Assembly: GCA_030830965.1 (NCBI GenBank)
Contig: JAURLX010000016.1
Location: 1 to 50,540 of the forward strand
Reading direction: 5' to 3'
DNA length: 50,540 bases
Source: Verrucomicrobiota bacterium
Lineage (GTDB): Bacteria; Verrucomicrobiota; Verrucomicrobiia; Opitutales; UBA953
Shown here: positions 32,125 through 35,329 of the stretch, one piece after another
How positions within the stretch are numbered: position 1 is the first letter of the stretch
How the letters are laid out: each line of letters starts with the position of its first letter
Made by a program: the position numbers and the translations under genes
The notes under the pieces: model-generated
What the model was told of the DNA's origin: nothing
Databases searched by the model: none
Seen by the model: only the letters and a program-made list of their open reading frames with translations

Positions 32125-33210
32125 TCATCTGCCGACATACCACCCTTTGGAGAAAGGCGAGGTCGTCAGGAATTGTTCGAGCTGCTCCGCGACTTTCTGG
32201 CGGCCCGCCGGGGAGGGGTGCGTTCCGTCGGGGCCGAAGTCCTCGGGCTTCCAGACCAGTCCGTCCGAGGCCCTGGGCCTCAGGCCGTCCGCCCAAAGGT
32301 AGGGCCCCCAGACCAGCACGGGCGCACCGGGCTTGAGGCCTCCGTCCTTCAGTTGGTCCATGATCGTCCAGCGCACCGCGAACGCGCTCTCGTAGGCATG
32401 GGGCTCTGGGTTGAGTCCGGTCCGCGCGTGGCCGGCGTAGATGCGGCTGGAGAAAAAGACCAGCCGGACTCCGGGACAGTGCTTCCGTAGCGCGGCGAGG
32501 TCCTGCGCGATGTAGTCCTTCAGGCGCGCCGCCTCGGCGGGGAAGGGCGAGCGGGGGCCGGGAAACGCTTGCTTGAACCAGACCGCCTGCACCTGCGGGG
32601 CGGAGACGCCCGCCTTCTGCAGTCTCTGCGCGATGACTTTCCAGAAGCCGGCCTCGGGATCGGCGATCCGATCCGCCGACTGGCCGCCCTGGGCGCCGTC
32701 CACCAGTACGACGTTCTTGGCTCGGGCCCCTCGCTGGTCGGACAATGTCTGGAACGCGCTGAACTCCTGGGTCGTGTTGGACATCCCGATCGAGAGCAGG
32801 ACGATGCGCCCGGTCTCGGAGGGCTTGCCGGCCGGGTCGAGCGGGCGGATGCCCGCCGCGGCCTGCGTCGCGGCCTCCGCAAGCTTGGGCGGCGGGACGT
32901 TCGCGCCTTCGCCGTAGAGTCCGCCCGATTCTCCGCGATGATCCGATTTGAGCTCGGTCAGCGGCGTCATCCCCGTCGAGGTCACGGCGCTTTTCGCCGG
33001 TTCGGCGTCCTTGCGTCCGGAGCCGCGCGCGCGTTCGGCCTTCGCGCGTTCGAGGTAGGCGCGCTCGGACGCCGTCAGGGTCTCCCCGGCCTGCTCCCGG
33101 CGGAGATAGCCGCGCGCTTTTTCGAAGTCGACAGGCCCGGCGTCTTTGGTCTGGGCGGAGAGCGTGATCTGCAGCGCCAGCAGGCAGATTAGCGCGGAGA
33201 TCACACGCAT
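32125..33210 (-). CDS. Secreted SGNH/GDSL-like hydrolase
   Basis: I place the start at ATG 33210, where a signal peptide begins (MRVISALICLLALQITLSAQ), giving 361 residues; the longer frame to 33426 runs into the end of the tgt fusion gene. A charged, helical N-terminal segment (EKARGYLRREQAGETLTASE) is followed by an SGNH-like core. VLLSIGMSNTTQEF replaces the GDSL block with Ser in GMSNT, VLVDGAQGGQSADR is the Gly block, and GPDGTHPSPAGRQKVAEQL carries the block V Asp and His. Ester hydrolysis on a glycan or lipid is likely, but the divergent block I lowers certainty. Confidence 0.72.
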   Translation of the reverse strand: MRVISALICLLALQITLSAQTKDAGPVDFEKARGYLRREQAGETLTASERAYLERAKAERARGSGRKDAEPAKSAVTSTGMTPLTELKSDHRGESGGLYGEGANVPPPKLAEAATQAAAGIRPLDPAGKPSETGRIVLLSIGMSNTTQEFSAFQTLSDQRGARAKNVVLVDGAQGGQSADRIADPEAGFWKVIAQRLQKAGVSAPQVQAVWFKQAFPGPRSPFPAEAARLKDYIAQDLAALRKHCPGVRLVFFSSRIYAGHARTGLNPEPHAYESAFAVRWTIMDQLKDGGLKPGAPVLVWGPYLWADGLRPRASDGLVWKPEDFGPDGTHPSPAGRQKVAEQLEQFLTTSPFSKGWYVGR

Positions 33211-33292
33211 GAAGGCATCATGCGAAGCCCGCAGTCTCGCGGCAATGTCATTGTCGGGCCTGTCATCGGTCGTGACCACTCCTGCCGAGGGG

Positions 33293-35329
33293 TCAGCCCT
33301 GGGCGAACTGCGGGTGTCCTTCGATCCTCGCCTCGAGCTCGGCACGCTCGGCGTCCCCCAGCCCCTCGGGGAACCTGGCCGACGAACGACGCCATTTGTC
33401 GAGCCACTCGCGTCCGAGGAGGGCATAGCGACAGGGGCGGACGTAGCCGGGCGTCAGGGCCACGATGGTCTCTTTCTTCACGCCGGTGCCGGTGCCGATC
33501 GCGACGTGGAAGCCGGCGTCGAGCAGGGCGACGCGCACCGCGGTGGAGGCGGAGTAGGTGAAAAGCTCCGCGGGCCTCCGTGGGTCGCACAGGCTGAAGA
33601 GGCGCCGGAACTGGCCCGGGGTCCAGCAGGCGGTGTCGGTCTTGTGCGAGAAGAAGTCGAAGAAGATGAGGTCGGGGGCGGAGGAGGATCCGCCGACGGT
33701 CTGCCAGAAGTCGCCGACATGCAGCTCCCAGCTGAGGCCTTCGAACTGGCGGGACTGCCAGGCATGCCGGGCGAGGATCGCATCGGGCCCGGAGTGGCGT
33801 AGGTATTCGAAGCGGTTCTTGTGCGTGAGCGCGAGCCGTAGGGAGTCGAGGTCGTTCTCGAAGCTGATGACACGCATCCGTCGCACCGGCCCCTTGGCGG
33901 CCTCGGCTTCGTAGCATTCGATCGCGGCCATGGCGTTGGCGGCGGCTCCCAGCCCGACGTCCCAGACGACGAGCGGATCGACATCTGCGGGTCCGCGACC
34001 GGGGGGCAGGGCGAGGCGTCCGGCGAGTCCGGATTGGTCGACGTACAGCGCCCTGGCTTCGACCATGGGAGGGGTGTGCGAATGCATGATCTCGCCCGAG
34101 GAGACCTGACGGATGCTCGCGAAACCCTCGTCGGCGAGGTGCACTTCGTAGTCGCCGAGTTTCCGTGGCCGACGCTCCTTGCCGACTTTCGGGGGCACCG
34201 ACGGGTTGTCGACGTCCTCCTCCTGCAGGAAGGCGCGCTTCTCGTGGTAGAGAGGGAGGAACCGGTCTTCGAGGACGCTCTGTCGGATCTCCCGCATGAG
34301 CTGATGGTAGAACCAGATGTTGTGACGGCCGATCAAGGTCCAGCCCAGCGGCTCCTGGGTCTTGGTCAGGTGATGCAGGTAGCCGCGCGAATGCCTGGCG
34401 CACACGGGGCAGCCGCACGCCGGGTCCAGCTTCTCCTCCGAGAACTTGTAGGCCGACCGGCGCAGCTGCAGGATGCCGCGGGAGGTGTAGGCGGTCCCGA
34501 ACTGCGCGACTTTGTTGGGGATGATGCAGTCGAACATGTCGACGCCGCGGTGCACGGCCTCGAGCAGGTCGAGCGGCGTCCCGACCCCCATGAGGTAGCG
34601 CGGCCGGTCCGCAGGGAGCATCGCGGCCGCCGCCTCGCAGGTGTCCTCGCGCTCGCTCTTGCCCTCGCCGACCGCGAGCCCGCCGATGGCGAAGCCGTCG
34701 AAGGGCAGCTGGGTGAGCCCTTCGGCGCTCTCCCTGCGGAGGTCGGGGTAGAGGGCGCCTTGCACGATCGCGAACATGGCCTGCGGGGAGTCACCACGCG
34801 CCTTGAGGCTGCGTACGGCCCAGCGGTGGGTGATGTCGAGGGCGGCCTTGGCCGTGGTCCGGTCGGCCGTCGAGGGGATGCACTGGTCGAGGACCATCAT
34901 GATGTCGCTGCCGATGGCGACCTGGGTGCCAATGCTGGTCTCGGGGCTCAGCAGGTGGATCTTGCCGTCGACGTAGCTGCGGAACTCGGCGCCTTCCTCC
35001 TTCATGCTCCGGGCGTGGGGCAGGGAGAAGATCTGGAAGCCGCCTGAGTCGGTCAGGAAGGACTTCTCCCAGCCGGTGAACTTGTGGATGCCGCCGAGGC
35101 GCCGGAAGACCTCGGGGCCGGGCCGCAGGAGAAGGTGATAGGTGTTGGCGAGAAGTATCTGCGAGCCGGACTCGAGGAGCGACTCGAAGGTCTGCGCCTT
35201 CACCGTGGCCTGGGTGCCCACGGGCATGAACAGCGGCGTCTGCACCTCGTTGTGCAGGGTGCGGAAGGTCGCCGCCCGCGCCCGCGATCCGGAAGCGGTT
35301 TTCTCGAGGGTGAACTTCAGGCGGGACAT
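33293..35329 (-). CDS. tgt: Fusion of tRNA-guanine transglycosylase (Tgt) and MnmD-type (DUF752) tRNA methyltransferase
   Basis: I place the start at ATG 35329 (MSRLKFTLEK), giving 678 residues. Residues 1 to about 375 are a complete bacterial Tgt: TDSGGFQIFS with D94, FAIGGLAVGEGK, GVDMFDC with the probable nucleophile D267, and zinc ligands C305-G-C307-P-V-C310 with H336. Residues about 395-635 match the methyltransferase half of MnmC/MnmD: SSGEIMHSHTPPMVEAR, WDVGLGAAANAMAAIE (SAM site), LIFFDFFSHKTDTACWTPGQF with D558, and TYSASTAVRVALLDAGFHV. Tgt inserts preQ1 at G34, and MnmD methylates nm5U34 to mnm5U34. There is no FAD-oxidase (MnmC1) part. The tRNA-contact segment reads PNKVAQFG instead of the usual PTRNARNG. 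The two domains share one uninterrupted frame. Confidence 0.9.
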   Translation of the reverse strand: MSRLKFTLEKTASGSRARAATFRTLHNEVQTPLFMPVGTQATVKAQTFESLLESGSQILLANTYHLLLRPGPEVFRRLGGIHKFTGWEKSFLTDSGGFQIFSLPHARSMKEEGAEFRSYVDGKIHLLSPETSIGTQVAIGSDIMMVLDQCIPSTADRTTAKAALDITHRWAVRSLKARGDSPQAMFAIVQGALYPDLRRESAEGLTQLPFDGFAIGGLAVGEGKSEREDTCEAAAAMLPADRPRYLMGVGTPLDLLEAVHRGVDMFDCIIPNKVAQFGTAYTSRGILQLRRSAYKFSEEKLDPACGCPVCARHSRGYLHHLTKTQEPLGWTLIGRHNIWFYHQLMREIRQSVLEDRFLPLYHEKRAFLQEEDVDNPSVPPKVGKERRPRKLGDYEVHLADEGFASIRQVSSGEIMHSHTPPMVEARALYVDQSGLAGRLALPPGRGPADVDPLVVWDVGLGAAANAMAAIECYEAEAAKGPVRRMRVISFENDLDSLRLALTHKNRFEYLRHSGPDAILARHAWQSRQFEGLSWELHVGDFWQTVGGSSSAPDLIFFDFFSHKTDTACWTPGQFRRLFSLCDPRRPAELFTYSASTAVRVALLDAGFHVAIGTGTGVKKETIVALTPGYVRPCRYALLGREWLDKWRRSSARFPEGLGDAERAELEARIEGHPQFAQG

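Follow-up and report, generated by a model that had tools for sequence, protein, structure and literature searches.

An open reading frame within a 50,540-nucleotide stretch of DNA (the window) from a Verrucomicrobiota bacterium was confirmed to encode a fusion of a tRNA-guanine transglycosylase (Tgt) and a methyltransferase with the MnmC2/MnmD fold. The source is a metagenome-assembled genome (G000) that is 87% complete. The fused Tgt is a second Tgt paralogue, designated here Tgt2. We propose, with a probability of roughly 0.4, that Tgt2 inserts preQ1 (7-aminomethyl-7-deazaguanine) and that its own methyltransferase domain then N-methylates the aminomethyl amine of that base. An earlier sequence-only reading of this DNA had located the gene correctly. 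It lies on the minus strand, from the ATG at 35329 down to 33293, as a single open frame of 678 residues followed by a stop, and the plus-strand frame at 33293..35329 is interrupted by stops.

The two domains that had been recognized by eye were recovered by profile searches in the one frame. Pfam TGT matched residues 16-364 (455 bits, E 1.8e-136) and Pfam Methyltransf_30 matched residues 530-625 (47.4 bits, E 2.2e-12), well above its cut-off of 22. The NCBIfam model Q_tRNA_tgt (TIGR00430) gave 426 bits against a cut-off of 307, and the tRNA_MNMC2 model gave 59.6 bits, which is under its cut-off of 136. A flavin adenine dinucleotide (FAD) domain family was not found in a Pfam search of the 678-residue protein.

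How widespread the fusion is had been left as a question, which the surveys answer in part. A search of 387 Verrucomicrobiota genomes gave a match in 376, and 25 of these scored at least 770 bits, the next best match being 364 bits. These 25 genomes carry the fusion, three of them with a shortened methyltransferase. The methyltransferase family PF05430 was matched at E 0.001 in 120 of the 387 genomes, 22 of which represent the fusion. Among 84,980 species genomes, a pattern scan picked out 339 stretches, of which 324 encode relatives of the methyltransferase domain; the best 80 of the 324 were taken for analysis. In 73 of the 80 the methyltransferase is in frame with Tgt, five run off the end of a contig, one has a broken frame (L072) and one is free-standing (L127). 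The taxon labels among these loci are mostly Opitutae, Spartobacteria/Chthoniobacterales and Verrucomicrobiales; further carriers are labeled Holophagales (L109), Thermoanaerobaculia (L138), Kofleriaceae (L140) and Oligoflexia (L132), and a relative is present in 3 of 297 genomes of the phylum to which L109 belongs. Chthoniobacter flavus Ellin428 (L104), which we take to be a cultured strain, bears the fusion. A mobile origin was rejected, as no match was found in viral contigs, plasmids or phages.

The possibility was considered that a sequencing or assembly frameshift joins two neighboring genes, which had been named beforehand as the finding that would overturn the fusion. The broken frame of L072 is the one observation in its favor. 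However, because the fused frame recurs across many assemblies, in the 25 genomes of the phylum and in the 73 loci of the other collection, a frameshift or chimera is excluded, and we give this explanation practically no weight.

Of 34 genomes with the fusion, 33 encode an ordinary Tgt as well, so the usual formation of queuosine does not require Tgt2. All 25 Verrucomicrobiota fusion genomes hold one (TIGR00430 was found in 29/29 genomes searched). Of ten further genomes, nine have the fusion; eight of these nine have both Tgts, and G390 has the fused one alone. The tenth (G396) has a methyltransferase that is free-standing. The ordinary Tgt of the source genome was located at G000:C12:80208-81308 (L050). 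When 30 fused Tgt domains were placed in a tree with 39 canonical ones, the two groups separated with a support of 100, the fused Tgts forming one clade whose stem is 0.93 changes per column long; the tree was built by a quick method, the 30 having been picked from 99 fused sequences to cover their range, and long branches meet at the split. The fused Tgts of the source genus share a fork of 11 rows (support 94) with those of family f14 and others, separate from family f3 of their own order, and the sequences labeled Acidobacteriota, Kofleriaceae and Oligoflexia are nested inside the fused clade. Judged from these sequences, horizontal transfer of the fusion is likely; an old duplication with losses may be the explanation instead. 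The CxCxxC zinc ligands are missing from many ordinary Tgts of Opitutales and relatives, L050 among them (the motif was present in 4/26 of a first set and 16/39 of a wider set), whereas the fused Tgt2 keeps its ligands.

The Tgt part is closest by sequence to the solved structures of the T. maritima and Z. mobilis enzymes. Residues D94, D148, C150, Q190, G217, V220, E222 and D267 correspond to Z. mobilis D102, D156, C158, Q203, G230, V233, E235 and D280, and Z. mobilis numbers are used in the remainder of this paragraph. The catalytic residues Asp102 and Asp280 are invariant in 99/99 fused Tgts, as is each of the preQ1 pocket residues D156, C158, Q203, G230, V233 and E235, and the zinc ligands C318, C320, C323 and H349 are kept in all 98 readable fusions. 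The zinc site and the two catalytic aspartates had been credited to this frame before, and rightly so. Other positions differ consistently. Position 286 is Arg in 39/39 canonical Tgts vs 0/98 readable fusions, all of which have Q, K, S or A, and position 289 is Arg in 39/39 canonical Tgts vs 1/98, the remaining 97 having Q or K. Position 157 is E (36/39) or I (3/39) in canonical Tgts and Q or H in 99/99 fused ones, and the His found at position 127 in 39/39 canonical Tgts is replaced by Tyr in 97/99. The Arg286/Arg289 pair appears to be a defining feature of bacterial Tgt and presumably contacts U33/U35. Passages of PMC5395182 describe a twisted Tgt dimer in which Arg286 lines the ribose-34/phosphate-35 pocket, and according to an excerpt of PMC3660597, C158 and V233 determine whether preQ1 or queuine is used. 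Since the catalytic, pocket and zinc residues are kept and the Arg pair and positions 157 and 127 are changed, the base chemistry of Tgt2 looks unchanged, and it is other parts, likely on the RNA side, that seem to have been altered.

For the methyltransferase part, the closest solved sequences were A. aeolicus MnmC2 and E. coli MnmC, both weak matches (E 0.0036 to 0.017). When the domain was modeled alone, the mean predicted local distance difference test score (pLDDT) was 89.5 and the predicted template modeling score (pTM) 0.89, and a Foldseek search with this model ranked MnmC2 (3vyw) first of 1059 matches with an E of 6.8e-13. The full-length model had a pTM of 0.56, and no conclusion was drawn from how it places the domains relative to each other; the structure matches listed for it are Tgt chains only and are silent on the methyltransferase part. 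The A. aeolicus and E. coli proteins have DxF[SA]PxKNPxxW around the catalytic Asp, with which D558 aligns in weak matches (E 0.0036 to 0.014), as the sequence-only reading had assumed. D558 and W569 are kept in the fusion protein; however, the DxF[SA]PxxNPxxW loop is not, and the stretch reads DFFSHKTDTACW.

The catalytic Asp, the next Ser and the Trp are invariant in 96/96 fused methyltransferases, and in the 22 full-length fusions first aligned, D457, G459, L460, G461, A462, A463 and N465 of the S-adenosylmethionine (SAM) loop are invariant as well. The rest of the active-site loop has diverged. The loop Asn (Asp+7) is present in 13/96 fused domains vs 30/30 relatives of other architectures, these being the best-scoring 30 PF05430 matches of the phylum, and Asn-Pro occurs in 24/30 of the same relatives vs 6/96 fused domains. 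[KR][TS] is found at Asp+5/+6 in 88/96 fused domains and Pro at Asp+4 in 0/96. The free-standing outgroup copies L172-L174 keep SPxRNPxMW. Since the loop Asn is kept in all 30 of these relatives and mostly lost in fused domains, the pocket has changed in the fused line. In a 42-domain tree the fused domains and their free-standing relatives grouped together (support 99), apart from the MnmL- and MnmC-type domains; long branches meet in this tree, and its rows were labeled by length and by eye, with model checks for L147, L154 and, via G194 and G317, for the MnmC kind.

The genes of the two pathways were counted with curated cut-offs in 35 genomes with a fused-type methyltransferase. MnmC1 (TIGR03197) was over its cut-off of 174.2 bits in none of the 35, the best score being 89.5 bits (G387), and matches under the cut-off occurred in 38 of 40 genomes searched. 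The earlier statement that MnmC1 is absent holds for the whole 87%-complete source genome, where the matches found were sub-cut-off ones to other FAD proteins. MnmL (TIGR01212, cut-off 180) was over its cut-off in 1/35 genomes (G388), with lower matches in 50 of 54 genomes searched and a best of 45.6 bits among these (44.2 where the genome has no better one). We read the sub-cut-off MnmL and MnmC1 matches as other radical SAM and FAD proteins. MnmG passed in 31/35 genomes, the exceptions being G000, G351 (a partial match), G387 and G389; QueF also passed in 31/35, with no match in G322, G389 and G390 and a match under the cut-off in G387; and QueA passed in 34/35. MnmG and QueA are probably missing from G000 through assembly gaps, because two congeners have both genes and the assembly is incomplete. 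With QueF and QueA this frequent, preQ1 should be available in most fusion genomes. According to passages of PMC3936742, MnmEG makes 5-aminomethyluridine (nm5U) directly with ammonium, and so a role at U34 is less likely, though possible, where MnmC1 and MnmL are missing. In most genomes the counts for MnmG, QueF and QueA do not discriminate between the two main explanations.

From these observations we infer the following sequence of events. The Tgt2 domain would exchange a guanine in an RNA loop, probably the tRNA wobble G34, for preQ1, and its targets are probably other than, or wider than, the tRNAs with a GUN anticodon. The MnmC2-like domain would then move the methyl group of SAM to the primary amine of the aminomethyl group, giving 7-(methylaminomethyl)-7-deazaguanosine, and, once this amine is methylated, QueA should be unable to convert the base further toward queuosine. 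nm5U34 carries its CH2NH2 group on C5 and preQ1-34 carries the same group on C7, the matching edge of the wobble base. MnmC2 methylates a wobble aminomethyl amine and Tgt inserts the aminomethyl-bearing preQ1, and this is a chemical theme that the two fusion partners share. Insertion of preQ1 followed by methylation would explain why the partner is a Tgt, why there is a second Tgt, why that Tgt is partly altered and why the methyltransferase loop has changed. A narrower version, in which the altered Tgt puts preQ1 specifically into non-GUN tRNAs and the fused domain methylates it there, would make the protein a two-step maker of a wobble base and would add a branch to the side of the queuosine pathway; we regard this version as doubtful. 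7-(Methylaminomethyl)-7-deazaguanosine is to our knowledge not known from tRNA. The openly licensed PMC literature yielded nothing on mdPreQ1 and, among the matches listed, no description of a Tgt-MnmD fusion; fusion of Tgt to transporters is described in passages of PMC11130926.

Several observations weigh against sequential insertion and methylation of preQ1. If methylation depends on Tgt2, a lone methyltransferase is useless unless canonical Tgt supplies the preQ1. However, L127:7953-8867 (G396) is a free-standing methyltransferase nested in the fusion clade of the 42-domain tree, L206 and L172-L174 are further free-standing relatives of the fused type, and the four genomes of the free-standing type that were tested (G396, G295, G333 and G369) hold canonical Tgt only. 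Conversely, three loci of one genus, L020 (G187), L023 (G199) and L026 (G190), keep Tgt2 and have a methyltransferase that stops before the catalytic loop; in these genomes the SAM loop is changed and an unrelated frame follows. Six fused domains (L071, L073, L074, L075, L109 and L137) still read Asn-Pro in the active-site loop. The genomes in which QueF is not over its cut-off count on the same side, as does the frequency of MnmG, with which nm5U could be made by the ammonium route in most genomes. Moreover, in the 80 loci no conserved neighbors linking the fusion to 7-deazaguanine genes were found.

The main rival is that the two domains have separate activities, in that Tgt2 inserts preQ1 at position G34 in one set of tRNAs and, in other tRNAs, nm5(s2)U34 is converted by the methyltransferase to its 5-methylaminomethyl form, mnm5(s2)U34, with nm5U coming from MnmEG and ammonium so that MnmC1 is not needed. 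Here, too, we are inclined to doubt, while ranking it as the strongest competitor. The MnmC2 fold and catalytic Asp, the MnmG count, the separate loss of either domain and the existence of free-standing relatives, three of them with an MnmC2-like loop, all agree with it, and passages of PMC3936742 state that the domains of MnmC work independently. It is harder to reconcile with the NCBIfam MnmC2 score, with the scarcity of the loop Asn, MnmC1 and MnmL, and with the two fusion carriers labeled Holophagales and Thermoanaerobaculia (G387 and G389), which encode QueA and a canonical Tgt beside the fusion and in which neither MnmG nor QueF is over the cut-off, the completeness of these two genomes not being stated. 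It also does not account for the choice of an altered second Tgt as the partner. The sequence-only reading had suggested a related idea, that one enzyme scans anticodon loops for either modification. MnmG keeps the U34 half of that idea possible, whereas the extra paralogue, the lost Arg pair, the altered methyltransferase loop and the near-absence of MnmC1 and MnmL speak against it, and in our view such scanning fits less well than sequential action on one base.

Two further explanations place the function elsewhere. Tgt2 and the methyltransferase may act on a G that is not the anticodon wobble base, on a different RNA or on DNA, in the way that DpdA and archaeal TGT have targets of their own; replacement of both Arg residues on the anticodon-loop side in nearly all fusions and the long stem of the fused Tgts are consistent with this, which we nevertheless judge improbable. 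Less probable still is that the methyltransferase serves mainly as an RNA-binding or structural extension with dispensable chemistry, leaving Tgt2 to ordinary or widened work on queuosine at position 34. The genus that keeps Tgt2 without the catalytic half of the methyltransferase would fit such an extension, but the invariant catalytic Asp, Ser and Trp and the invariant SAM loop argue for retained chemistry, and the mean column identity is 59% in the methyltransferase part vs 69% in the whole protein.

Positions of the fusion gene and its features in the window
Feature	Position	Strand	Basis or remark
Whole gene, Tgt paralogue plus MnmC2/MnmD-like methyltransferase	33293..35329	-	678 residues and stop; Pfam, NCBIfam
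Tgt domain, residues 1-372	34214..35329	-	Pfam TGT 16-364; closest solved structure T. maritima Tgt 2ash, followed by Z. mobilis Tgt
Nucleophile D267 (Z. mobilis D280)	34529..34531	-	99/99 fusions
K273 to Q276, where canonical Tgts have the Arg286/Arg289 pair	34502..34513	-	Alignment
Zinc site C305, C307, C310, H336	34322..34417	-	98/98 readable fusions
Linker, residues 373-390	34160..34213	-	Structure model; confidence low at 378-385
Methyltransferase domain, MnmC2 fold, residues about 391-630	33440..34159	-	Pfam, sequence, fold
SAM-binding loop DVGLGAAAN, residues 457-465	33935..33961	-	Alignment
Active-site loop D558-W569, DFFSHKTDTACW	33623..33658	-	Alignment
Conserved C-terminal tail, residues 637-675, LLGxxWLxxWxRS...HPQF	33305..33421	-	Alignment

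The neighborhood of the gene is not conserved. The best groups of neighbors were found at no more than 22 of the 80 loci, and many were antisense or unrelated frames. The source fusion is surrounded by genes for a beta-lactamase-family protein, a dicarboxylate symporter, a tetratricopeptide repeat (TPR) protein, a DUF4870 protein and LexA. In its longest reading, an open reading frame at 32125-33426 on the minus strand, which has no Pfam match, shares sequence with the end of the fusion gene; the true start probably lies further downstream, close to a stretch that resembles a signal peptide. The window has no tRNA genes, and Rfam models, including the preQ1 riboswitch, had no match at the gathering score in the window and seven loci.

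A number of additional observations were made on related genes. Genome G396 has a 38-residue Tgt fragment elsewhere in its sequence. At L173, a gene that by eye resembles TrmL, a wobble 2'-O-methyltransferase, lies downstream of the free-standing methyltransferase on the same strand, which weakly hints that the free-standing form works at U34. Weak second PF05430 matches of about 22 bits were found in two fusion genomes, at L177 (G274) and L178 (G102:C5:620000-627000). In G055, G150 and G147 (L147, L154 and G147:C119), a radical SAM protein over the TIGR01212 cut-off has an MnmC2-type methyltransferase behind it in one frame of about 590-635 residues; we take TIGR01212 to represent MnmL, which would make this frame an MnmL-MnmD fusion. 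Other PF05430 rows have lengths similar to such a fusion, and a Cys motif of the radical SAM type was seen in 13/30 loci.

The fusion may represent a tRNA modification that has gone unrecorded in a widespread and little-studied phylum, and the proposal is testable, Chthoniobacter flavus Ellin428 being a named carrier. If it is true, a methyltransferase of modified uridines has been redirected to a modified purine with the same side group. Tgt would also have been released from the anticodon restriction that it normally obeys, a point of relevance to RNA labeling tools based on Tgt.

When known systems are compared, the fusion shares with bacterial Tgt (TIGR00430) the whole fold, the catalytic Asp pair, the zinc site and the preQ1 pocket including C158 and V233, and differs from it in being a second copy in the genome, in the replacement of Arg286/Arg289 and other residues and in a C-terminal methyltransferase part of about 290 residues. 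DpdA and the 7-deazaguanine tailoring systems of phages resemble it in that a Tgt-like base exchange is followed by tailoring of the 7-deazaguanine, and methylated preQ1 is said to have been reported in phage DNA by Cui in 2023. In contrast to those systems, the fusions are cellular genes close to tRNA Tgt, and no phage relatives were found; no DpdA model was among the seven NCBIfam matches (up to E 1) of the fusion protein, which was the one search made for DpdA. With MnmC2/MnmD (DUF752, PF05430; A. aeolicus MnmC2 3vyw) the fused methyltransferase has in common the fold, the catalytic Asp, the SAM loop with its Asn and the order of motifs. It differs in its altered active-site loop, its extra conserved tail, its score under the NCBIfam cut-off and its partner, which is Tgt and not MnmC1. 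The nearest parallels in architecture are MnmC, in which MnmC2 is joined to MnmC1, and the MnmL-MnmD fusion of other Verrucomicrobiota, where an MnmC2-type methyltransferase is likewise joined to a tRNA-modifying enzyme. In those proteins the partner makes the nm5U on which the methyltransferase acts, as MnmL does for the methyltransferase joined to it, whereas Tgt2 would make a different aminomethyl base.
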